Shown here: piece by piece, positions 5,788 to 52,131 of the stretch | How the letters are laid out: each line of letters starts with the position of its first letter | How positions within the stretch are numbered: position 1 is the first letter of the stretch | Source of the DNA: an uncultured Mycoplasmatota bacterium | Lineage (GTDB): Bacteria > Bacillota_I > Bacilli_A > RF39 > UBA660 | Length of the DNA: 64,000 nucleotides | Reading direction: 5' to 3' | Assembly (NCBI GenBank): GCA_948434005.1 | Contig: CAOJEH010000007.1 | Location: 1 to 64,000, forward strand | The notes under the pieces: model-generated | Databases searched by the model: none | Told to the model about the DNA's origin: nothing | The model's input: only the letters and a program-made list of their open reading frames with translations | Translations under genes and position numbers: made by a program

Positions 5788-6565
5788 TTAGTTATTTAAT
5801 ATATTGATTAGTTCATCATGAATTTTACCATTACTAATTACTTTATTATCTATTTTTTTCATAGATTCCCCACTAATATTAGTTATTTTACCTCCAGCTT
5901 CTTCTACAATTAACATACCCGCTGCTGAACTTAAGCCCTCACTTGGCTTAACATTTATAAAGCCATCAATTTTTCCAGATGCTAACCAACATAATTCTAT
6001 TGCACTAGATACAATTAATCTTAAACCTCTTGTTTTTGTTGCAAGTTTTTCTTCGATATTTAAAACTTCTTTTATATGTTTATCATTGTAATGTGATGTC
6101 AAGCAAAAAGAAATAATGCTATCCTTTAAATCAGAAGTTGAAGATACCTTTAATTTCTTATCATTACAATAAGATCTTCCCCCCCCCCTTATATGCATAA
6201 TATGTATCTTTTTGATTATAATCATAAACAAATCCAAATATTGTTTCACCATTCTTTTTTAATGCAATTGATGTTGAAAATAATGGTATACCTGATGCAA
6301 AGTTTATTGTTCCATCTACCGGTTCAATATACCATACATATTCACTGTTATTATTAATTCTTCCTTTTTCCTCAGAATATATGGAATATTTTGGAAACCA
6401 CTCTAAAAGCTGGTTTATAATTTTTTCTTCAATATAGATATCAACATTTGTGACTATATCATTTAATTCTTTATTTTCTATATTTTTATCAAAATTTAAT
6501 GTTTCTTTATAACTGCTTTCTATTAATTCTTTTAATTTTTCTACAAAATTATTATCGAGATTCAT
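5788..6565 (-). CDS. IMPase-family phosphatase, frame broken at a G10 tract (phase OFF)
   Basis: Two overlapping frames together make one IMPase-family protein. The upstream frame holds 'EEKGRINN' and 'IEPVDGTINFASGIP' (the DPxDGT position reads EPVDGT). The downstream frame holds 'RSYCNDKKLKV', 'IELCWLASGKIDGFI' and 'GMLIVEEAGGKITNIS'. They meet at ten G on the coding strand. Nine G would give a continuous protein of 258 residues (KGGGRSYCN across the joint), close to the family length. As sequenced, the product stops five residues after the tract. The likely ATG is 6565 behind GGGTGG; an ATG at 6583 lacks a ribosome site. The gene follows the Gfo/Idh gene closely and probably shares its mRNA. 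Confidence 0.8.
6179..6188 (-). repeat. G10 mononucleotide tract in IMPase gene
   Basis: Ten consecutive C on the plus strand, G on the coding strand, encoding glycines near codon 121. Tract length divisible by three gives the full frame; ten puts translation out of frame. It is the longest G/C run in the window. Confidence 0.9.
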
Positions 6566-6586
6566 AATAGAAATACCACCCATCTT

Positions 6587-7688
6587 TTAATTGTAAGAAT
6601 TTGTCTCTTCTTTAAAATCAATACTACTACCTTTATTAGCAGAATCTTTTATAGCCTGTAATATTTTCATGCAATATATAGAATCCTTGGGTGTAGCTGC
6701 TATACTGATTTCATTGTTATTATCCATTTTAATGGATTTAATTATCTTTGGTGCTAAATAGCGAAATGAGCCAGAAAATATTGATACTTTATTTTCAACT
6801 TCGTCTTGAAAAACACCATCTGGTTCTATTTGTTGAACTTGTCCTATAGAAGATTGTAAATATAATTTTAATTTATCTTCTAATGTAAATGTTAATTCAC
6901 CTTTATCTCCAAATACTGTTATATCAAATCTAGATCCAACATATGATCCTGCATTAATTGAGTATTGTACTGTTAATTCATCCTCTAATCTTATCAATGC
7001 ATTACAAGTAGTACTAGCACTAACTTTTCTTAATTTACCATTTAAATCTAAACGTTCTTTTGTAATCGGATTCATAGAAGCAGCTACACTTATAATTTCT
7101 TTCGAATCAAACCAGTATTCAATTAAGTCTGTAAAATGAGAGGCCATTGCAAGACGACCCCCCAGATTCTTCACCATCAAAGCTCCAACTCCAAGTAGCA
7201 TCTTCATTAGTAAATCCTGTACCTTGTTGATTAAGATGAACATTATATATTTTACCAAGAGTACCATTATTAATCATTTTCTTTATTTTCAATATATATG
7301 GATTAAAACGAAGTTGATGATCAATAATTAGAATCTTATTATAATTTTTTGTGATTTGATTTATCTCTTTTGCTTCTTCTAGTGTATCTACCATAGGTTT
7401 TTCACAAATAATATTTTTATTTTTGGATATTGCATATAAAAGCATTTCTCTATGAAATTTATTTGGAGTTGTTATACATACTAAATCTAAATCTTCAATA
7501 TCACAAAGTTCTTTATAATCTGCACATGCAACTGGTATATCATATTCCTTAGAAAATTCTCTACTTCGTTCTAAAGAGCTCCCTGCAATTGCATAAACTT
7601 CTGCTTCATCCTGGAAATAACGAAAACCTTTAAGGTGAGTTCTAATACCTACACTTGTACCAATTATACCTATTTTTATTTTCTTCAT
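6587..7688 (-). CDS. Gfo/Idh/MocA-family oxidoreductase, frame broken at a G6 tract (phase OFF)
   Basis: NAD(P)-dependent sugar-type dehydrogenase family. The N-terminal Rossmann motif is 'KIGIIGTSVGIRTH'; 'NIICEKPMVDTLEEA' carries the conserved EKP; and 'EIDHQLRFNP'-type sequence (IIDHQLRFNPYILK) follows. The C-terminal half continues in another frame from 'GGRLAMASHFTDLIEYWF'. The two frames meet at six G; five or eight G would give a continuous protein of 366-367 residues, the normal family length. The ATG at 7688 lies ten bases behind GGAGGG; the ATG at 7706 is inside that ribosome site. Substrate unknown; pairing with an IMPase suggests an inositol- or sugar-phosphate route (inference). 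Confidence 0.82.
7158..7163 (-). repeat. G6 tract in Gfo/Idh gene
   Basis: Six G on the coding strand in the glycine-rich joint EESG-GG-RLAMA. Length 5 or 8 restores the frame, so the present length is off. Confidence 0.75.
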
Positions 7689-7705
7689 TATTATTTTTCC
7701 CTCCA

Positions 7706-8212
7706 TTATTTAAATATTCTAATTAAAATAGAATATTTCCAATTTAATACCGCTCCTTCACAACAATGCTCATATTCTATGATTTTAACTTTTAAAAATG
7801 TGTCATCAATTGATTGATTACTATCAAGAATTTTTTTTATTTCTAAATATTCTTTTCTAATATCATTATCATTTAGCATAGTACTATCTAATTGTCTGTT
7901 CAGTAAATTAATAATATCTTTTTTTATACAATCTCTTTTATCTGCATTATATAATTCAAAATATTTATACATTGAAAGTAGAGCTAAATATTCATCCTTT
8001 TTTATATCATTTAGTTGTTGTAAAATTCCAAATATAGTCATTTGATAAAATGTATAAAAAATTGTCATTCTCTCTATAAAATCAATAAAACTTTCTGTTT
8101 GCCAAAATACATTTGTTATAAATGTTAATAAATATGAAATCCCTACCACTTCTAGTAAATATAAAAATATTTGAAATATACGTTTTGTAATCAAATAATG
8201 TTTTTTTATCAT
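7706..8212 (-). CDS. Small membrane protein, unknown
   Basis: A 168-residue protein with two hydrophobic segments (about residues 11-35 and 48-65), then a mostly helical cytosolic part containing 'NLLNRQLDSTMLNDNDIRKEY' and a Cys pair 'EHCCEG'. I do not recognise the family. It starts behind GGAG and ends where the ribosome site of the Gfo/Idh gene begins, so it probably heads the three-gene unit with the two phase-variable enzymes. A role in defence or transport cannot be argued from the sequence. Confidence 0.6.
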   Translation of the reverse strand: MIKKHYLITKRIFQIFLYLLEVVGISYLLTFITNVFWQTESFIDFIERMTIFYTFYQMTIFGILQQLNDIKKDEYLALLSMYKYFELYNADKRDCIKKDIINLLNRQLDSTMLNDNDIRKEYLEIKKILDSNQSIDDTFLKVKIIEYEHCCEGAVLNWKYSILIRIFK

Positions 8213-30466: not shown

Positions 30467-31437
30467 ATGAAAAATAATCGTTATTATAGCCGTATAGATG
30501 AAATTGATGATATTACTAATTTATCAAAACTAGTTTGCAAAGAATACTCTTTAGAGGGGGGGAATATAAAGATACTTTCGTTATTGAAATTGGATATGAA
30601 GATTTCAATGCAGTTATAACAACTACCACAGGAAAGTTTCTTATGAAGGTCTTTAGAAATCAACGTGATGATCAAGAAGTATATGACTGTATAAATAGAA
30701 GTTGGGCAGCCTATAAAAACAATGTAAACACACCGAAAATTTATGAAAACTCTAATAATGATATTGTATCTATTATAAACTATAATGAATCTAGATTCAG
30801 AGTATCAGTATTAGAATACATAGATGGTGATAATTTCTTTGATTTAAATAGAAAACCTACATCTGAGGAATTGAAAAAGATTGTTAACATTGGAAGTAAT
30901 TTAAATAAAATTGATTATAAACCAAATTTCATTTATGATACTTGGGCAATAACTAGTTTTTGTAAAGAATTTGAAAAAAAATCTAAATACTTAGATAAAG
31001 AATATTTAGATATGGTTAAACCTGTCTATGATAAGTTTAAAAATTTTGATTATGATAGTTTACCAAAGGCATTTGTCCATGGAGACATGATGAGTACAAA
31101 TTTAATGATTGATAAAAATGATGATATTTGGGTTATTGACTTTTCTGTTTCAAATTACACTGCTAGATTAAATGAAATTGTTGTAATTTGTGATGACGTT
31201 GCACTAATTTACGGTGATAAAGAGACTTCCGAAAAAAGAATTATGGCTGCGTTTGAACAATGGTGTAGTGAAGTAAATGCAACGCAATTAGAAAAAGATT
31301 CATTTCTAATGCTATTTGAAGTTGCTAATGCTATAAACGTTCTAAACCCGCTTTATGAAATTGCAACTGGAAATGATTCAGATGAAACAAAAATGCACTT
31401 AAATGCTGGAATATTTGGATTATCTCTTTTTAAATAA
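30467..31437 (+). CDS. Aminoglycoside phosphotransferase-like kinase, frame broken at a G7 tract (phase OFF)
   Basis: The ATG at 30467 sits behind AAAGGAG and opens MKNNRYYSRIDEIDDITN, but after the G7 tract this frame ends within about 20 codons. The rest of the kinase is in another frame: 'YEDFNAVITTTTGKFLMKVF' (nucleotide-binding Lys), catalytic 'FVHGDMMSTNLMIDKNDD' and 'IWVIDFSVSNYTARL'. Eight (or five) G would give a continuous protein of 323 residues (YSLEGGEYKDTFVIE across the joint). A TTG at 30535 opens the kinase frame but has no ribosome site. Family members phosphorylate antibiotics, sugars or homoserine-like compounds. Confidence 0.8.
30556..30562 (+). repeat. G7 tract in APH-like kinase gene
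   Basis: Seven G after GA at codon 30. Lengths of 5 or 8 are in frame; the present length is off. Confidence 0.85.
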
Positions 31438-41040: not shown

Positions 41041-41988
41041 GATTCTATCCTCTCTATAAGTCTTTTTTCTAATACTTTATTTTTTAATCTTCTTTTAACA
41101 GCATCAGGTGCGACGCTTACTACACAAGAATATAAATCGTCTGTTGAGAAATTATTGGATAATTCTTTTCTTGTAGACTCTAATTTTTCTTGTAATTCAT
41201 CATCGAAATTAAACTCCGTAAATGTATATAAGAAATCCATAATGAAGTTATATGCCATATCATCATGTTGCCATTTTTTTCTATATGAATATGGATGTAT
41301 TGGTAAATATGGAAGTTTTCCACTTTTTAATGATGTTTCAATTTCTTTTGGAATATCATCCATTAATGAATATAGTGTTTCATAATCAATAACATGTGCA
41401 TCTAATGGTAAATTTTTCTCAGGCATATAGCCTCTTTTTATATAATCCACTATTTCTTCTACATCACTTATTGTTCTCATAGGATTTATATCAGATGGAT
41501 ACATTTTATTCTCATTAAATAACCCTATTAATTTTTCTTTAGCTTCTGAAACATCTTTGCTATTACAAACCATCCACATATCTATATCAGGTAATCTATT
41601 AATTATCTTTCTTGGTTTTAATTCATCATCCATAGAAGGACATGGTTTACATATTTGTTTTAAATCTGGTAATGTATCTGATTTTTCTTCTAAGCAATCA
41701 GCACAATGCCATATAAGGTGATTACTCCTATTAACATGTTCTAATAATTCATCGTTATATCTTAATTGTTCCTCTATAATCGGAAGCGTACCCCCCCATG
41801 TCCTTATTTAAGGCATAGAATGGATACCCTGTACCAAATGAACCACGACAAATATCAAGGTTTCCAACCACACTATTATATAGTTTAATATTTTTAATTA
41901 TATAGTCTTTTTTTAATTCAGTATTATTAATTTCAAATTCAGTAGAAATATTTGCAACCTTTCTACATATATTAATTGAACAACTCAT
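41028..41988 (-). CDS. Unknown 319-residue protein with two G tracts, frame broken (phase OFF)
   Basis: Two frames make one protein. The first starts MSCSINICRKVANISTEF and ends soon after a G7 tract following 'FYALNKDM'. The second continues 'TLPIIEEQLRYNDELLEH', 'NHLIWHCADCLEEKSDTL', 'RKIINRLPDIDMWMVC', 'LPIHPYSYRKKWQHDDMAYN' and 'VVSVAPDAVKRRLKNKVLE'. Six or nine G would give 319-320 residues. A G8 tract occupies the ribosome-binding position, four bases before ATG. No family recognised; a nucleotidyltransferase-like Asp pair (PDID) is visible but proves little. Promoter TTTCAA-17-TATAAT, start predicted near 42011. Confidence 0.65.
41791..41797 (-). repeat. G7 tract in the unknown 319-residue gene
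   Basis: Seven G on the coding strand after AT of codon 65 (ATG-GGG-GGG). Lengths 6 or 9 keep the long frame; seven is off. Confidence 0.85.
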
Positions 41989-44100: not shown

Positions 44101-44460
44101 TTAATAACCATTTGTTTTTATATCAATTATTTTAGCATAATTAACTGGATTCTTAATTATATTCTTATAAACTGATATTTTTCTAATTTCTATTATGAAC
44201 TCTATTTCTTCATCAGATAGTGTGATTTCTCTATCAGGAGACTTACCTATATTATTCATACCTAGAGTGTATTTAATATCAACCTTAAAATAATCTGATA
44301 TTTTAATCAATGTTTCTATCGATGGGCTCCTTTCACCTTTTTCATAATGAGAAATTGTTGTTTTATTCATATTAAGTAACTTGCCTAACTCTTTTTGAGT
44401 TAATCCTTTACTATTTCTTAACTTCCTTATTCTTTCACCAATTACTACTACTCTATCCAT
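44101..44460 (-). CDS. XRE-family transcriptional regulator
   Basis: A 119-residue protein with an N-terminal Cro/CI-type helix-turn-helix (residues ~6-60: 'ERIRKLRNSKGLTQKELGKL', 'NMNKTTISHYEKGERSPSIE'). The C-terminal ~50 residues contain 'SDEEIEFIIEIRKIS', unlike a peptidase or sugar-binding domain. Start behind GAGGTG. A perfect palindrome lies about 60 bases upstream and may be its own operator. What else it controls is not visible. Confidence 0.85.
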   Translation of the reverse strand: MDRVVVIGERIRKLRNSKGLTQKELGKLLNMNKTTISHYEKGERSPSIETLIKISDYFKVDIKYTLGMNNIGKSPDREITLSDEEIEFIIEIRKISVYKNIIKNPVNYAKIIDIKTNGY

Positions 44461-44553: not shown

Positions 44554-45447
44554 CTATTTGTCTTTCCTTACTTTTATAACATCATTTTTTTGTAAATTTC
44601 CTATTAATAAAGATGAATATTTATTATGACTTTTATGGTTATTATTTACCTTATCTTCATCATAATTGGCATAGCAATATTTACAAAAATGCTTACATGA
44701 ATTATAAACTCCTATATCTACCATTTCTACACAGTTACATTTTCTCTCTTTTCTAGCTTTCCAACTTTTAAAATTAGTTTTTCCAGTTAGTTTAAAAGCT
44801 AGTGTATGAGATAGGCATTCTCCTTTTATAAAACCATATTCAACTAAATTTCTATCTTCAAAACAAGTTTGCACACTCATACCATTTTCTTTAGCACTTT
44901 TACTAAAATTAACCCCTATTTGCTTATAGTCAGATTCACTAAAGTTTTTATAATTAATAATATTTTTATTTTTTCTAACATTTTTATAATCATCTATAAA
45001 AGATATAATAAAATACTTAACATATCCATTTAATAGTTTGCACAATTTATCAAATGCTTTAATATGATAGTCTATGGTATATTTATCACTTATAAATATA
45101 GGATCATATCTTATATATAGGTTATCTATACCTATAATTTTTGATATTTTTTTAATTGCTTCTATAATATCATTTTTATTTGGAACATTTGGTTCTATAT
45201 CATTTTTATATGGAGTTAATGTTATATGAAATAAAATTGGTTTATTTATCTCTTTTAATTTATTTATAATTGGAATGGGATTTTTTGTACAAAAAAGAAT
45301 TGCATCTACATCATCAAAATAAATTCTATTAACTAATCTTTTATTAAATGGATTTCTTACATCAACAAAACCAGCTTTGAATCTATTCATAAACCAATCA
45401 GAATAAAATGCTACTATATCTGTTCTTCCACTTACATTAAGTATCAT
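44554..45447 (-). CDS. DUF1848 family protein (radical-SAM-like cysteine cluster)
   Basis: A 297-residue protein of the DUF1848 type: N-terminal 'MILNVSGRTDIVAFYSDWFM' and 'GFVDVRNPFN', middle 'IRYDPIFIS', and a C-terminal Cys cluster 'KCNCVEMVDIGVYNSCKHFC' followed by KYCYAN, which recalls an Fe-S site. The domain looks related to radical-SAM barrels (CTKNP, DPIF) but biochemistry is unknown to me. The ATG at 45447 gives the usual family N-terminus; the frame upstream is an extension. Promoter TTGACA-17-TAGAAT at 45498-45470. Confidence 0.8.
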   Translation of the reverse strand: MILNVSGRTDIVAFYSDWFMNRFKAGFVDVRNPFNKRLVNRIYFDDVDAILFCTKNPIPIINKLKEINKPILFHITLTPYKNDIEPNVPNKNDIIEAIKKISKIIGIDNLYIRYDPIFISDKYTIDYHIKAFDKLCKLLNGYVKYFIISFIDDYKNVRKNKNIINYKNFSESDYKQIGVNFSKSAKENGMSVQTCFEDRNLVEYGFIKGECLSHTLAFKLTGKTNFKSWKARKERKCNCVEMVDIGVYNSCKHFCKYCYANYDEDKVNNNHKSHNKYSSLLIGNLQKNDVIKVRKDK

Positions 45448-45469
45448 ATAATCATCTCGACATAAATAA

Positions 45470-45498
45470 ATTCTACTATCAAAACATTTGTTTGTCAA
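45470..45498 (-). promoter_or_regulatory. Promoter of the DUF1848 gene
   Basis: On the minus strand TTGACA (45498-45493) and TAGAAT (45475-45470), 17-base spacer. It sits back to back with the small-RNA promoter. Confidence 0.55.
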
Positions 45499-45515
45499 TT
45501 TGAAAAATACCTGAC

Positions 45516-45544
45516 TTGTCAAGAATTTGATTTTGTGATATTAT
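45516..45544 (+). promoter_or_regulatory. Promoter of 116-nt RNA member A
   Basis: TTGTCA (45516-45521), 17-base spacer, TATTAT (45539-45544). TTGTCAA occurs three times nearby (45492, 45516 and 45549), which may be coincidence or a binding site. Confidence 0.6.
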
Positions 45545-45550
45545 GTATTT

Positions 45551-45666
45551 GTCAAGGAAACTTGCATAAAATAAAAAAGGATACATTTGATTGTAGTTGA
45601 TCAAATGCATTCCCATTGTTTGGTACGCATCTGAAATCACATAGTTGTGAAATCAGATGCTTTTTT
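45551..45666 (+). ncRNA. 116-nt small RNA, member A of a two-member family
   Basis: Start at GTCAAGGAAACT, seven bases after the -10. CAAG-GAAA-CTTG is a GNRA-capped hairpin at the very 5' end. An A-rich linker ending AAAAAAGG, hairpin CATTTGAT/ATCAAATG, a TTCCCATTG linker and a terminator GCATCTGA/TCAGATGC (45627-45660) with six T follow. The 5' ~30 bases match member B near 21.9 kb. No rightward gene follows. It fills most of the 315-base gene-free stretch between the DUF1848 and ABC-2 genes. Function unknown. Confidence 0.68.
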
Positions 45667-45727
45667 CTATTTTAGGAGTAAAATAATTACTACTAAGAAT
45701 AGGAGTAATATTACAATAATTAAATCT

Positions 45728-45758
45728 AAAAAAAATAGGAAAACCAATAACGGTTTTC
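45728..45758 (-). terminator. Intrinsic terminator after ABC-2 operon
   Basis: AAAACC/GGTTTT around GTTATT, followed by a run of eight T on the minus strand, directly after the stop of the second permease. Confidence 0.7.
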
Positions 45759-45762
45759 TTAT

Positions 45763-46911
45763 TTAATTTGTCTTTAATTTTCTCTTAGTTACTATATTGG
45801 AAATAATGATAAATATAATTGTAAATAAAACTAATATACTCATATTAAATATAATATCTTTTATTGTATCAAGTTTAATTATATCTATTTTTTCTAACAT
45901 TTCATTAGTATTAATATACCAATATGAAGGTAAGATATGGGCTATTCTTAAAACGCTATCTGGTAAAAATTCAACTGGTACAAATGCTCCACATAAGAAA
46001 CTTGAACCTAAAGCTACTACATTTACTATTCCATTAATAGCTTCTTTATTATTTATTAAATTACTTATTAAGAATGCTATTGATACAGAACATAATGTAA
46101 ATAAAATAGAATTTATTATATAAATAATACCACTTGTACTAAACATTATTTTACCACATAAAATTATACTTAATAGTATATAAAATATCCATACGCTTAT
46201 AGCTAATAATATATTTGAAAGTAGTAGAATTCTATTATGTTTTTTATAATCTGTACTACTGATAATAGTTCTTTTCTTTATTTTTTCTTCATGGAAACTT
46301 GAAAGTACTAAACATATTATATAAATAGTACCTGCTAGGACACTATAACTTAGAAAATTATAATAAAATGTTGCTTTTTCTATAGCTTTAGTATCTTTCT
46401 TAGAAGTTAATTCTACTTCTACCTTTTTAGATAGAGTTTTATTTATATTACTAATTAATTCCTCTTCATTATCAATACTATTTTTATAGGTATTAGAAAC
46501 ATTAACATATCTTTTTAACATTATCTCAGCAAGTGATGATTGATAATCTCCAGTCTTTTTAATTTTAATTTCTGGTTCTTTCCCATTTAGATAATCTCTT
46601 CTATAGTTTTTTGGTATATAGATAATATAATTTACATCTCTATAAAATAAAGCATCATCTATAGCATCTTTATTATTATCTATTTTTTTAATATTACTAT
46701 TTTTCTTAATATAATCTACTAAGTTTTTAGTAACACCTTTATTTTCATCTTTATTAACTATTAATACATCTGGTTTTTCTTCTTTAAAAGACATACTACT
46801 TTCACTTGTTTGCATATTAAATCCACCAAAAAATATTAAAAAGGCAGTATATATTATCAAAGGAAATTTACATTTATTTAGAACTTTTAAAAATGTTTTA
46901 AATACTATCAT
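45763..46911 (-). CDS. ABC-2 type transporter permease
   Basis: A 382-residue permease: one N-terminal membrane helix, an extracellular region of ~150 residues ('PDVLIVNKDENKGVTKNLVD'), then five or six helices, as in YhaP/YhgE-type ABC-2 exporters. The C-terminal 'LGSSFLCGAFVPVEFLPDSV' is a conserved ABC-2 segment. Overlaps the preceding permease gene by 14 bases; the two permeases and the ATPase form one exporter. Substrate (lipid, drug or peptide) unknown. Confidence 0.85.
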   Translation of the reverse strand: MIVFKTFLKVLNKCKFPLIIYTAFLIFFGGFNMQTSESSMSFKEEKPDVLIVNKDENKGVTKNLVDYIKKNSNIKKIDNNKDAIDDALFYRDVNYIIYIPKNYRRDYLNGKEPEIKIKKTGDYQSSLAEIMLKRYVNVSNTYKNSIDNEEELISNINKTLSKKVEVELTSKKDTKAIEKATFYYNFLSYSVLAGTIYIICLVLSSFHEEKIKKRTIISSTDYKKHNRILLLSNILLAISVWIFYILLSIILCGKIMFSTSGIIYIINSILFTLCSVSIAFLISNLINNKEAINGIVNVVALGSSFLCGAFVPVEFLPDSVLRIAHILPSYWYINTNEMLEKIDIIKLDTIKDIIFNMSILVLFTIIFIIISNIVTKRKLKTN

Positions 46912-48070
46912 ATTTCTGCCTCCTTAAACTAATACAAGATATAATAATTAAAATACTAGAAAATATAAGAAGGCTTATAATATTAAATAAATATCTTTCT
47001 ATTCCATCATAATAATATAGAGAATAGAAACCATCTGTTATCATACTTGCTGGATTTAATTTATTAATAATAGGTATATTTTTATCTATAATGTATTTCA
47101 TAGTTATACCCATCATTCCTGATAGGAAGGAACCTAACATAGTAATTGAGATTATAATTCCTGTTTTTGTAGCTTCATTTTTCTTAAGTAAAGTTGATAC
47201 TGCTACTCCTAGTGATAGACCTGCTAAAGTACCAACTAGTGAAAGTATAATTATTAAAATTATATTATCTCCATAATCAACATGTAGAATAAATATTGTA
47301 TATAAGAACAAAAGTAATAATCCTAGTAACTGAACTATATAACTAGCAAGTAAATTTGATAGAATAATCTTACTTTTTTTAATTGGAGATATTTGAATTC
47401 GTCTACCTTGCATTGACATATTAGCTAAACTCATATTAATAATATACATTGAAATCATTCCACCATATAAACAAGTAAGTGCAATTAAAGTATAAAACTC
47501 TATCATAGTATAACTTAAATTGGATTTTGAAATATCAGTAATTTTAGAAGTATCTTTACTTACTAATTTATTTACATCATTATATATCTTTTCATAATCT
47601 ACTTTATTAATAGGAGACTTTTCTACTTCTTTATTTATTAGATTTGGTATTATCTCTTTTGTTTGATTAATTTGATCTACTGTATATTTTAATATAGTTT
47701 GATCTATACCACTTTTTAAAACGACAATTTTTGGATTATTATCTTCTATAAATAGATAACCTGATACTTTATTATCACTTAATAGTTTCTTAGCTTTTTT
47801 TAAACTTACATATTTTGTATTAAATAATCTATCTTTATTATTTTTATTACTTAACTCTTTAAAGGTAGTTTTCATTATTTCATCATTTTTAAATTCTTTA
47901 TTATTTACTATAGCAATATCTATAATATCTAATTTTTCATTATCTTCGATACTAGAAAATGCTAGACTAAAGAAAGTTCCTAAAATTATCGGAAATGCAA
48001 ATGTCCAAAATATAAGCATTTTATTTCCAAATAAATTTTTAATAGCGTATTTAAAATTATGGATAAACAT
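46898..48070 (-). CDS. ABC-2 type transporter permease
   Basis: A 390-residue ABC-2 permease with the same layout as the partner: N-terminal helix 'MLIFWTFAFPIILGTFFSLA', extracellular domain, then a membrane block including 'LVGTLAGLSLGVAVSTLL' and 'LNPASMITDGFYSLYYYDGI'. Its start overlaps the ATPase stop by one base. With the neighbouring permease it would make a heterodimeric channel. Confidence 0.87.
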   Translation of the reverse strand: MFIHNFKYAIKNLFGNKMLIFWTFAFPIILGTFFSLAFSSIEDNEKLDIIDIAIVNNKEFKNDEIMKTTFKELSNKNNKDRLFNTKYVSLKKAKKLLSDNKVSGYLFIEDNNPKIVVLKSGIDQTILKYTVDQINQTKEIIPNLINKEVEKSPINKVDYEKIYNDVNKLVSKDTSKITDISKSNLSYTMIEFYTLIALTCLYGGMISMYIINMSLANMSMQGRRIQISPIKKSKIILSNLLASYIVQLLGLLLLFLYTIFILHVDYGDNIILIIILSLVGTLAGLSLGVAVSTLLKKNEATKTGIIISITMLGSFLSGMMGITMKYIIDKNIPIINKLNPASMITDGFYSLYYYDGIERYLFNIISLLIFSSILIIISCISLRRQKYDSI

Positions 48071-49008
48071 TAGTCTCTAAGTTCCTTTCCTGTAAGCTCT
48101 AGGAAAACATCATTTAGAGTTGGTCTTTCTGAAAATATTTTATTATATGTAATCTTTTCTCCTTTTAAATAATCCATAAACTTTGAAATATTATTATTAC
48201 CTTTTTTATATGTTACTATTAAATTACTTCCATCATATGATACATCTTCTACATTTTTTAGAGTTCTTATCTTATTTATTTTTTCTTCTTCTAAATTATC
48301 CAATTCTACAGTTATTTTTTCTTCTATATTAGCAAGCTTCTTTAATTCATCTGAAGTACCACTAGCTAGAATTTTACCTTTATCTAGAATCATAATTCTA
48401 TCACATAGTATTTCTACTTCTTCCATATAATGTGTTGTATATATAATTGTAGCGCCATCATCTCTTAATTTTTTTATTCCATCTAGAATATTATTTCTAC
48501 TTTGAGGGTCTACTGCAACTGTTGGTTCATCTAATATAATTAATTTAGGCTTATGAGCAATACCACATGCAATATTAAGACGTCTAAGAAGACCTCCAGA
48601 TAGTTTTTTAGGTCTAAACTTTATAAAGTCATTTAAACCTACTAGATTAATTGCATCATCTACATACTTCTTTCTTTTTTCTTTATCATTTATATATAAG
48701 CCACAAAAGTAATCTATATTTTCATAAACAGTTAATTCATTAAATACAGCAACATCTTGAAATACTACACCTATTTTACTTTTTATATCATAACTATTTG
48801 GTTTCATTTCTTTACCAAATATTTTTATACTTCCCTTTTTAAAATTTATAAGTTGCAAAATGCAATTAATAGTTGTAGATTTACCACTACCATTAGGTCC
48901 TAAGAGACCAAATATTTCTCCTTCTAATACATCAAAAGATAAATCATCTATTGCTTTTAATTCCTTATACTCTTTAGTTAAATTTTTAACTTCTACTACT
49001 TTTTTCAT
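48070..49008 (-). CDS. ABC transporter ATP-binding protein (ABC-2 exporter)
   Basis: A 312-residue ATPase of the CcmA/DrrA type: Walker A 'LLGPNGSGKSTTINCIL', signature 'KLSGGLLRRLNIACGI', Walker B 'LIILDEPTVAVDPQSR' and H-loop 'YTTHYMEEVEIL'. The extra C-terminal ~90 residues ('LNDVFLELTGKELRD') are typical of drug/lipid exporters. Start at 49008 behind GGGTGG; an ATG four codons upstream is less likely. First gene of the exporter operon. Confidence 0.92.
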   Translation of the reverse strand: MKKVVEVKNLTKEYKELKAIDDLSFDVLEGEIFGLLGPNGSGKSTTINCILQLINFKKGSIKIFGKEMKPNSYDIKSKIGVVFQDVAVFNELTVYENIDYFCGLYINDKEKRKKYVDDAINLVGLNDFIKFRPKKLSGGLLRRLNIACGIAHKPKLIILDEPTVAVDPQSRNNILDGIKKLRDDGATIIYTTHYMEEVEILCDRIMILDKGKILASGTSDELKKLANIEEKITVELDNLEEEKINKIRTLKNVEDVSYDGSNLIVTYKKGNNNISKFMDYLKGEKITYNKIFSERPTLNDVFLELTGKELRD

Positions 49009-49068
49009 TATACCACCCATCTCAATTTAATTATACTATAATCAATTACAAAATTCTTCTAAACTATG

Positions 49069-49951
49069 TTATTTTAGTCTTCTTGAAGATTCATCTTTTC
49101 TTGATTTATTATATACTATTTCTTCTATTTTTTCTTTATGTTTTTTATATCCATCTAAATAAAAGTTTTTACATTTCTCTGGCATAGAGTGATTGGTTTT
49201 TTTCTCTATTCTTTCAAATACTGACATTAAATTTTCTTCACTAATTATCCATAGTCTTTTTTCTATTAAATTATTAAATTCATCACTACTTAAATGTTGA
49301 AATTTTTTAAGGGCTTCCCATAAATTTTCATCTTCTGATTCACTTATGGATATGGAAATGATAGCATCTTCTTCTCTATATTTAAGTATTCTCTCATTAT
49401 CATATAAAGGGCTAATATTGATACTATCTTCTTTTTCCATAATCTCCCAGTTTCTAGTATGTCTATCAGGTTGGCAAGTAATGATATCAAATAGAAATAT
49501 ATCGACGATTTGGCTCATTAAGTTATGCGTTATAGCTATTTTATTTTTTTTATCTCTGTAATAATAATCTAATGCTGTCCATATTGAATCTAGGTTATTA
49601 TACTCATCTATACTTAGACATTTTCCATTATGATAACTATTGAAACAATATGATAAAATATCATCTGCTAAAATATAATTAGCATTCTTTTTCTTATAAT
49701 TTTTAGAAATTACTCCCTTTATACCATTTAAGCTTGCTAAATCATAAGAAACACAGAAAAGTCCATAATCTTTAGCAAGTTCTTCTGCTACTAATTCACT
49801 ATATGGTAATATATCTTCATTATATTTATAGAAATAAGTTTCTCCTTTATAATTAAATTCAAGGTGCGAGGAGGCATTAAGATCTATATATTTTGCCCCC
49901 CCCGGCTTTTAACATCTCATCTATACGGATATAACCATTAATTCTTTCCAT
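49069..49951 (-). CDS. HipA-like Ser/Thr kinase, frame broken at a G8 tract (phase OFF)
   Basis: The ATG at 49951 behind GGAGTG opens MERINGYIRIDEMLKAGG, but after eight G the frame ends within seven codons. Another frame, in register if the tract is seven, continues 'AKYIDLNASSHLEFNYKGET', 'LPYSELVAEELAKDYGL' and the catalytic block 'DIFLFDIITCQPDRHTRNWE' plus 'ISPLYDNERIL', giving 293 residues. The DxxxxDRHxxNW and (Y/A)DNE order is that of HipA/CtkA-type kinases; HipA phosphorylates glutamyl-tRNA synthetase and causes persistence. The gene lies 26 bases downstream of tex on the same strand. Target not known. Confidence 0.75.
49896..49903 (-). repeat. G8 tract in HipA-like kinase gene
   Basis: Eight G on the coding strand after GCC at codon 17. 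Length seven is in frame. It sits near the N-terminus, so the off state makes only a ~24-residue peptide. Confidence 0.85.
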
Positions 49952-49977
49952 TATTTTATCACTCCGATTTTATAATA

Positions 49978-52131
49978 CTATTTTTCAAGTAAACTTAACC
50001 CTACTTTTTCCTTTTCTATATCAATACTATCAACATAACAATCTACTATATCTCCTACTGAAAATAAATCTGATGGATGCTTTATAAATTCATGACTTAA
50101 TTTAGAAATATGAGCAAGTCCATCATTATGTAGACCTATATCAATAAATAGACCAAAATCAACTACATTACGAACCGTTCCTTGTAAGCTTTGTCCTTGA
50201 TGCAAATCCTCAATATGTAACACATCACTTTTTAAAATTGGTTTAGGCATATTATCTCTTGGATCTCTTTCTGGTGACTCTAAAGATTTTACGATATCTT
50301 CTAAAGTATATCGATCTATTCCTATTTCTTTACTTAATTTTTCTACATTAATCTCTTTTAATTTTTCTTTTAATAATGGTGAACCTATATCATTAGTATT
50401 AAATCCTAAATTAGTCAGTAATTTTATAGTTTCTTGATAACTTTCTGGATGAATAGAGGTTTTATCTAGAGGATTTTCTCCATCAGGTATTCTAATAAAT
50501 CCAATAGCTTGCTCATATACTTTTTCTGTTATTCCTTTTACTTTTTTTATTTCATCTCTATTTTTAAATTTTCCTAAGATATCTCTTGCTTTTAAGATTT
50601 CTTCTATTGCCCTTTTAGATAATCCTGATACATAAGAAAGTAGGCTTTTACTAGCTGTATTTATATTTACGCCTACTGAGTTTACGCATTTCTCTACTAC
50701 AAAGTTTAGAGATTCATCTAATTTCTTTGGAGTAACATCATGTTGATAAAGACCTACTCCTATACTTTTAGGATCTATTTTTACAAGTTCTGATAGTGAA
50801 TCTTGTAATCTCCTACCAATACTAATAGCACTTCTTTTTTCAACTGTTAAATCAGGAAATTCCTCTATTGCAAGATTAGATGCTGAATAAACTGAAGCTC
50901 CGGCTTCACTAACTATAATATAATCAACATGTCTTTTAGCTTCTTTAATTGTTTCCGCGATAAATGCCTCACTCTCACGAGATGCAGTTCCATTTCCAAT
51001 TGCAATTATATCTACATTATATTTATCAATTAATTCTAATACTTTTTTCTTAGACTCTTCTATTTTATTATGAGGCTCTGTTGGATAAATAACTGCAATC
51101 TCTAGAGGTTTTCCTGTTTTATCTAAGACTGCTAATTTACAACCTGTACGAAAAGCTGGATCATAACCTAAAACAACTTTTTCTTTAATAGGTGGTGTAA
51201 GTAATAGATGTTCTACATTATCTTTAAAGTTTTCTATAGATACTTCTTCTGCTTTTTCCTTTAATTCTTTTCTTATTTCTCTTTCTACACTAGGAAGAAT
51301 TAATCTTTTTAAAGAATCTACTATAGACTCTTTTACTATAGGTACTACAAAACTTTTTTCATTCTTTATTAATTTCTTTTCTAAAAATACTATAATATCA
51401 TCATTACTATAATCTAATGAAACTGATAAAACTCCTTCTTTTTCACCTCTATTTATAGCCATTATTCGATGTGGTTTAATCCATTTTATTAATTCATTAT
51501 AATTATAATATATTTCGTATGTTTTATTTTTATCTTTATCTTCTTTAGTTTTCTTTAATTTAGATACTATTACTCCATTTTTAAAGATATATCCTCTTAT
51601 ATACTTTCTAAATGATGCATTATCACTAGTCCATTCTGCAATTATATAACTTGCGCCTAAAACTGCATCATCAACTGTTTTAATATTCTCATTTAAATAC
51701 GATTTAGTAAGACTTTCTATATCACCTGTTATTGGATATGACATAATCTTTTTAGCTAGTGGTTCTAGCCCATTTTTAATAGCTTCTGTTGCTTTAGTCT
51801 TTTTCTTTTCTTTATATGGTCTATATAAATCTTCTACTTCTACTAATTTAGAACAATTCATTATAGAAGTTTTCAACTCATCTGTAAGTAGTCCTTTTTC
51901 ATCAATAAGTCTAATTACATCTTCTTTTCTTTTTAATAAGTTAACTTGATATTCATAAACCTCATTTATCTTTCTAATTACTTCTTCATCAAGTGCTCCA
52001 GTAGCTTCTTTTCTATATCTTGCAATAAAGGGAATTGTATTACCATCACTCAATAATGATAAAACAGTATTAACCTGTTTTTCTGTAATAGATAAATCTT
52101 TACTAATTTCTTTTATAATTAATTCATTCAT
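49978..52131 (-). CDS. tex: Tex family S1 RNA-binding protein
   Basis: A 717-residue protein of normal Tex length: N-terminal helical region 'TIPFIARYRKEATGALDEE', YqgF/RuvX-like nuclease-fold domain ('VVLGYDPAFRTGCKLAVLDK', 'IAIGNGTASRESEAFIAETI'), helix-hairpin-helix region ('GVNINTASKSLLSYVSGLSK') and a C-terminal S1 domain ('GTVRNVVDFGLFIDIGLHND'). Tex binds RNA and nucleic acids and affects gene expression; it interacts with transcription. Transcribed leftward together with the HipA-like gene; divergent from an unknown gene. Confidence 0.93.
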   Translation of the reverse strand: MNELIIKEISKDLSITEKQVNTVLSLLSDGNTIPFIARYRKEATGALDEEVIRKINEVYEYQVNLLKRKEDVIRLIDEKGLLTDELKTSIMNCSKLVEVEDLYRPYKEKKKTKATEAIKNGLEPLAKKIMSYPITGDIESLTKSYLNENIKTVDDAVLGASYIIAEWTSDNASFRKYIRGYIFKNGVIVSKLKKTKEDKDKNKTYEIYYNYNELIKWIKPHRIMAINRGEKEGVLSVSLDYSNDDIIVFLEKKLIKNEKSFVVPIVKESIVDSLKRLILPSVEREIRKELKEKAEEVSIENFKDNVEHLLLTPPIKEKVVLGYDPAFRTGCKLAVLDKTGKPLEIAVIYPTEPHNKIEESKKKVLELIDKYNVDIIAIGNGTASRESEAFIAETIKEAKRHVDYIIVSEAGASVYSASNLAIEEFPDLTVEKRSAISIGRRLQDSLSELVKIDPKSIGVGLYQHDVTPKKLDESLNFVVEKCVNSVGVNINTASKSLLSYVSGLSKRAIEEILKARDILGKFKNRDEIKKVKGITEKVYEQAIGFIRIPDGENPLDKTSIHPESYQETIKLLTNLGFNTNDIGSPLLKEKLKEINVEKLSKEIGIDRYTLEDIVKSLESPERDPRDNMPKPILKSDVLHIEDLHQGQSLQGTVRNVVDFGLFIDIGLHNDGLAHISKLSHEFIKHPSDLFSVGDIVDCYVDSIDIEKEKVGLSLLEK

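Follow-up and report, generated by a model that had tools for sequence, protein, structure and literature searches.

A predicted solitary HipA_C-family kinase gene interrupted at a G8 tract in an uncultured gut Bacilli bacterium rich in poly-G runs

E. coli HipA causes growth arrest via phosphorylation of glutamyl-tRNA synthetase (PMC8262856). It is the kinase of HipBA, the type II toxin-antitoxin system of E. coli and Shewanella, in which its partner is HipB. Compact relatives include HipT of HipBST (E. coli O127, Legionella; PDB 7ab3, 8ezr, 7vkb), a core kinase without N-subdomain 1, and CtkA of Helicobacter pylori (PDB 3akj, 3akk), a compact HipA-like kinase. HipH (YjjJ) and HipL are monocistronic Hip kinases in a 2021 phylogeny (PMC8262856), and HipAD/DS-6, which has a DUF3037/DUF1829 partner, is a HipA-family kinase with a validated role against phages (PMC13092281). 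The poly-G/C contingency loci of Neisseria, Campylobacter and Bordetella, several per genome, have their G runs either in promoter spacers or within genes (porA promoter, PMC3639595; PhasomeIt, PMC6321876).

Here we analyzed a HipA-like gene in a stretch of 64,000 nucleotides (the window) from an uncultured gut Bacilli bacterium. An earlier note, made from the sequence, had proposed that this gene is phase-variable and off. The features of the gene are as follows.

49069..49908, minus strand: kinase frame (HipA_C), 277-279 codons open, no stops (Pfam, AlphaFold2, Foldseek)
49877..49951, minus strand: upstream frame, giving a 24-aa product when the tract is G8 (sequence, translation)
49896-49903, minus strand: G8 homopolymer tract, from codon 17 on (sequence)
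49962..49965, minus strand: Shine-Dalgarno-like GGAG, 10 nt 5' of ATG 49951 (sequence)

The kinase frame (P0001) matched Pfam HipA_C (PF07804) at 1e-7 and 32.3 bits, just passing the curated cut-off of 30.5. HipA_C is its sole Pfam domain above cut-off, and no NCBIfam model was matched. The frame also matched component A of the PADLOC defence candidate PDC-M03 (PDC-M03A) at 9.8e-20; PDC-M03 was not traced in the literature searched. The catalytic motifs, QPDRHTRN and YDNE, are intact as had been claimed, but the spacing of the first is D-x6-DRHxxN and not DxxxxDRHxxN. In an alignment of 29 sequences, D146, N151 and D168 (catalytic Asp and Asn, and Mg-binding Asp) are invariant, and K26 and E36 nearly so. 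The alignment-based AlphaFold2 model of the frame reached a pLDDT of 89.8 and a pTM of 0.89, and the best solved structures found with it in Foldseek were CtkA, HipA and HipT (E 1e-8 to 1e-5; TM-scores ~0.5-0.64). With the domain above cut-off, the catalytic residues intact and a HipA-type fold, the assignment as a HipA-like kinase stands, and the locus is a predicted solitary HipA_C-family Ser/Thr kinase gene, the only HipA_C gene (1) in its genome. The G run was also considered as the Gly-rich loop of the kinase; this was rejected, since glycines are not conserved at this place in homologues and the model shows little order in the segment.

Compared with HipA, the kinase shares the HipA_C catalytic domain and the fold but is built without the ~100-aa N-subdomain 1, as 16 codons and a core of 277. 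It has no HipB partner, and its ~294 codons in all are interrupted by the G run. Of the features that define HipBA, both the adjacent HTH antitoxin and N-subdomain 1 are therefore missing. HipT is a structural match and equally compact, whereas the hipB and hipS genes are absent beside the kinase here and the upstream gene is tex. CtkA is the best structural match, but only at ~16% identity and a TM-score of 0.55-0.64. A partner gene is absent as for HipH and HipL; however, the kinase is too short for the N-terminal HTH domain of HipH or the HipS-like and HIRAN domains of HipL, and lacks them. By profile match it is HipA-related and defence-linked, like HipAD/DS-6 and PDC-M03A, but no DUF3037/DUF1829 partner was recognised beside it. 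The G runs resemble those of Neisseria, Campylobacter and Bordetella in placement and in number per genome; here, in contrast, they belong to uncultured gut Bacilli of 25% GC, the product is a predicted intracellular kinase, and switching is a prediction from sequence.

The frame break reported at codon 17 is seen at the G8 tract, the codons being numbered in the frame opened by ATG 49951 on the minus strand. Sixteen codons, the ATG included, precede the tract. In the G8 state, the upstream frame encodes MERINGYIRIDEMLKAGGGKIYRS and then a stop, eight codons past the tract start. Between the tract and ~codon 131 we found no ATG, GTG or TTG in the kinase frame, so that a conventional internal start cannot rescue the N-lobe; a start at ~codon 131 would leave only half of the kinase, lacking the N-lobe. 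The segment MERINGYIRIDEML of the upstream frame corresponds to M-x-R-x-x-G-Y/F-I-x-L-D, a motif at the N-terminus of many homologues. For homologue L038, the model has an ordered beta hairpin at the equivalent place (block pLDDT 94). At the position of the tract, homologues have a linker that differs greatly in length among them. Because the N-terminal motif and the kinase lobe are conserved on either side of the tract, we conclude that one gene is interrupted and that these are not two genes. Besides the G8 tract, no second disruption of the kinase frame was seen, and all catalytic residues are present.

The neighbourhood of the gene is arranged as follows.

49978..52131, minus strand: tex, upstream neighbour (gene identification)
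45523..49977, minus strand: ~4.4 kb block that holds the kinase, two ABC-2 permeases and an ABC ATPase and is missing between tex and DUF1848 in both nearest sister species
48070..49020, minus strand: ABC transporter ATPase (ABC_tran, DrrA1-3_C; domain match)
46898..48070, minus strand: ABC-2 permease (ABC2_membrane_3; domain match)
45763..46911, minus strand: ABC-2 permease (ABC2_membrane_3; domain match)
44554..45522, minus strand: DUF1848 gene, directly 3' of tex in the nearest sisters (domain match and sister comparison)
44101..44460, minus strand: HTH_3 regulator, four genes from the kinase (nearest HTH_3 gene found)

The kinase gene lies 26 bp 3' of tex on the same strand and no terminator-like site was called between them, which agrees with the earlier placement in the tex transcription unit; in evolutionary terms, however, it is an insertion. 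In the two nearest sister species (L154 and L155), whose tex is 85-86% identical, a gap of 13-27 bp separates tex from the DUF1848 gene, and the HTH_3 gene comes next. Since tex is joined directly to DUF1848 in these sisters, the kinase cannot be counted among the long-standing genes of the tex unit, and gene order indicates that the kinase and ABC exporter genes are an insertion absent from both. The kinase and the ABC-2 exporter may have been acquired together. The other six genus-mates have different genes 3' of tex. A conserved tex-kinase linkage was rejected, because none of 80 tex loci of named relatives (mostly MAGs of uncultured Bacilli/Tenericutes, including Candidatus Onthousia; some loci end soon after tex) has a kinase homologue in the stretch of sequence covered. 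We confirmed that no HipB-type gene adjoins the kinase. The HTH_3 gene at 44101-44460 was rejected as its antitoxin, being part of the ancestral locus and kept in sisters that lack the kinase.

Our searches gave a kinase match in 57 of the 243 family genomes, own included. The best homologues (46% and 39% identical) are both from other genera, whereas identity is only 24% for the two genus-mates that gave a match. Scans of GTDB contigs and viral contigs with P0001, and of viral contigs with L038, returned no relative. At the ~70 homologous loci read, we found no G/C run of at least 7 in the kinase or up to 150 bp from it; the longest tract was a G6, at one locus. Nearly all of these loci have an open and apparently intact frame, so that of the tract-free and decayed homologues envisaged in the earlier note, only the missing tracts were found. 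Given such homologues, a switch would be specific to the lineage of this bacterium. Homologues whose neighbours were read are solitary, many of them in housekeeping contexts (nusB-xseA, queA-tgt, rpsR-rplI; neighbour families confirmed for examples only). Among the matches listed, no HTH_3 gene adjoins the kinase in 14 genomes (own and 13 others), and the check for an adjacent antitoxin in related genomes was negative among these matches in all 13. The idea that switching stands in for a missing antitoxin is weakened and not supported, as the ~70 tract-free homologues equally lack an obvious partner and are nearly all in frame. Their state also makes an unconditionally toxic HipA unlikely.

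To place the tract in its genomic context, G/C and A/T runs were counted. The window has 6 G/C runs of at least 7 against 0.145 expected, and 0 A/T runs of at least 9 against ~14 expected (200 dinucleotide shuffles). The genome (1.45 Mb, 25% GC) has 16 G/C runs of at least 8 where a dinucleotide model predicts ~0.9; 14 of the 16 are distinct if contig C9 duplicates C1. Over the two 3 kb stretches compared, C9 equals C1 (280-298 kb) at 100%, so the assembly probably holds a duplicate. About five distinct runs are in promoter-like positions and the rest are mostly coding. The own genome has 6 copies of the promoter-like arrangement TTGACA-N-Gn-TATGAT (one in the suspected duplicate C9, one with only G6), and 14 matches were obtained in 7 of 243 family genomes; the reversed arrangement gave 0 in the same genomes. 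The poly-G tracts of this genome look like contingency loci, with G/C runs far beyond chance that also occupy promoter spacers, in support of the phase-variable reading.

Genes with coding runs include an inositol monophosphatase, a Gfo/Idh oxidoreductase, an APH-like kinase and an HD-domain protein (identified by Pfam), as well as a D-2-hydroxyacid dehydrogenase and a metallo-beta-lactamase-fold hydrolase (named by eye). In the own genome, ~3 of 9 coding runs of at least 7 are in frame by eye, as random phase predicts, and no second disruption was seen by eye in the out-of-frame tract genes. At 5788-7709 of the window, the adjoining genes for inositol monophosphatase (G10) and Gfo/Idh oxidoreductase (G6) are both frameshifted at G runs. 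Further frameshifts at G runs affect the APH-like kinase (G7, 30556-30562), an unknown 256-aa protein (G7, 41791-41797) and the HD-domain gene at ~20220 (G5). MutS and MutL are both present as long open frames, and loss of mismatch repair was rejected as the origin of the tracts for this reason.

Across the family, G9 runs were detected in 135 of 243 genomes, with 0 to 140 9-mers per genome. The own genus has many poly-G runs in both promoter spacers and genes, and sister species have further poly-G promoter spacers of TTGACA/T-G9-TATAAT types. The distribution is patchy, with genera in which runs are abundant and close neighbours from which they are absent; MutS and MutL are nonetheless found in nearly all family genomes tested. 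In sister species G006 (L151, L152), we observed tandem ~330-aa surface-like genes, each behind a near-identical TTGCAA-N10-G9-TATAAT. All tracts seen in this array are exactly G9, which would be odd if they slipped freely.

Poly-G runs exceed chance and lie in promoter spacers and genes, the window is free of A/T runs of at least 9, and both MutS and MutL are encoded; a lineage-wide set of poly-G tracts that vary in phase by slippage is therefore likely. At the kinase gene, a homopolymer tract far beyond chance sits in an expression-controlling position, as at contingency loci; its length is known from one assembly of the species. We therefore favour, at a probability of roughly 0.6, that the kinase gene is a member of the poly-G contingency set and is off in this assembly. 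The gene would have been acquired, probably with the ABC-2 exporter, between tex and DUF1848, and a poly-G contingency tract would set its expression. Slippage of DNA polymerase would alter the run length. Cells in the assembled G8 state would make the 24-residue peptide only, and the whole kinase would be made by a minority of cells, those whose run length is congruent to 1 modulo 3.

Alternatively, the gene could be a recent pseudogene: the G run, lying in a tolerated linker, would have slipped a single time, and loss of the gene would be under way with no switch under selection. Such decay would fit the homologues without a tract, the lineage-specific insertion of the kinase gene and the frameshifts at G5 and G6 elsewhere in the window. 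We consider it unlikely, as 277 codons are open with complete catalytic residues and no further disruption, and as long G runs are strongly over-represented in promoter spacers and genes of a genome whose window is free of A/T runs of at least 9.

A miscalled run length, with the kinase gene actually in frame, is less probable still. The window frameshifts are concentrated at G runs, and those at G5 and G6, which are shorter than typical contingency tracts, leave room for assembly error there and give most cause for caution; the 100% match of C9 and C1 suggests a long-read or merged assembly. However, the window also has 94 A/T runs of 7-8 nt, none of them with a convincing frameshift, separately assembled family genomes also have long G runs, and the in-frame fraction of coding runs is near one third, not near one.

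A further alternative, that slippage on the G run during transcription or translation gives low constant amounts of full-length kinase, so that the gene is dampened rather than switched, is very improbable: some AT-rich symbionts rescue homopolymer frameshifts by slippage on poly-A and the frame 3' of the tract is preserved here, but poly-G is probably a poorer substrate than poly-A/T for RNA polymerase slippage, a minus-one ribosomal shift leads into the third frame and another early stop, and the genome also has tracts in promoter spacers, where there is no reading frame for slippage to restore.

The kinase is probably not constitutively toxic but could act on a cellular target when triggered, to control growth or to defend against phages; the switch might turn its expression into a bet-hedging trait. 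Growth arrest by E. coli HipA and phage defence by the HipA family fit such a triggered role better than constitutive toxicity, and we infer that the locus is best read as a regulatory or defence kinase, triggered and under a random switch. Of the persistence scenario proposed earlier, the partnerless HipA-like kinase broken at G8 remains, but a role in persistence like that of HipA is not supported, and the solitary and in-frame state is normal in the family. It is a tentative and rather doubtful extension that a slippage-switched, partnerless kinase keeps a few kinase-positive (dormant or phage-resistant) cells in each population as part of a family-wide poly-G phasome.

Most of what is known of poly-G phase variation comes from pathogens, Neisseria and Campylobacter among them. 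The tracts described here span a family of uncultured gut Bacilli, in promoter spacers and genes, and one lies in a HipA-family kinase. The titles and abstract openings searched mention neither poly-G phase variation in the lineage of this bacterium nor a phase-variable HipA kinase. Should switching prove true, genetic bet-hedging would be tied to a type of kinase that is associated with growth arrest and with defence against phages. In this family, the compact HipA_C kinases that stand alone and in frame within housekeeping operons apparently fall outside the ten gene organisations of the 2021 Hip phylogeny (PMC8262856), and they raise the question of how cells keep them harmless. The order nusB-kinase-xseA was seen in five genomes (L043, L046, L054, L055 and L056), so that the family may well have a conserved locus for a HipA_C kinase.
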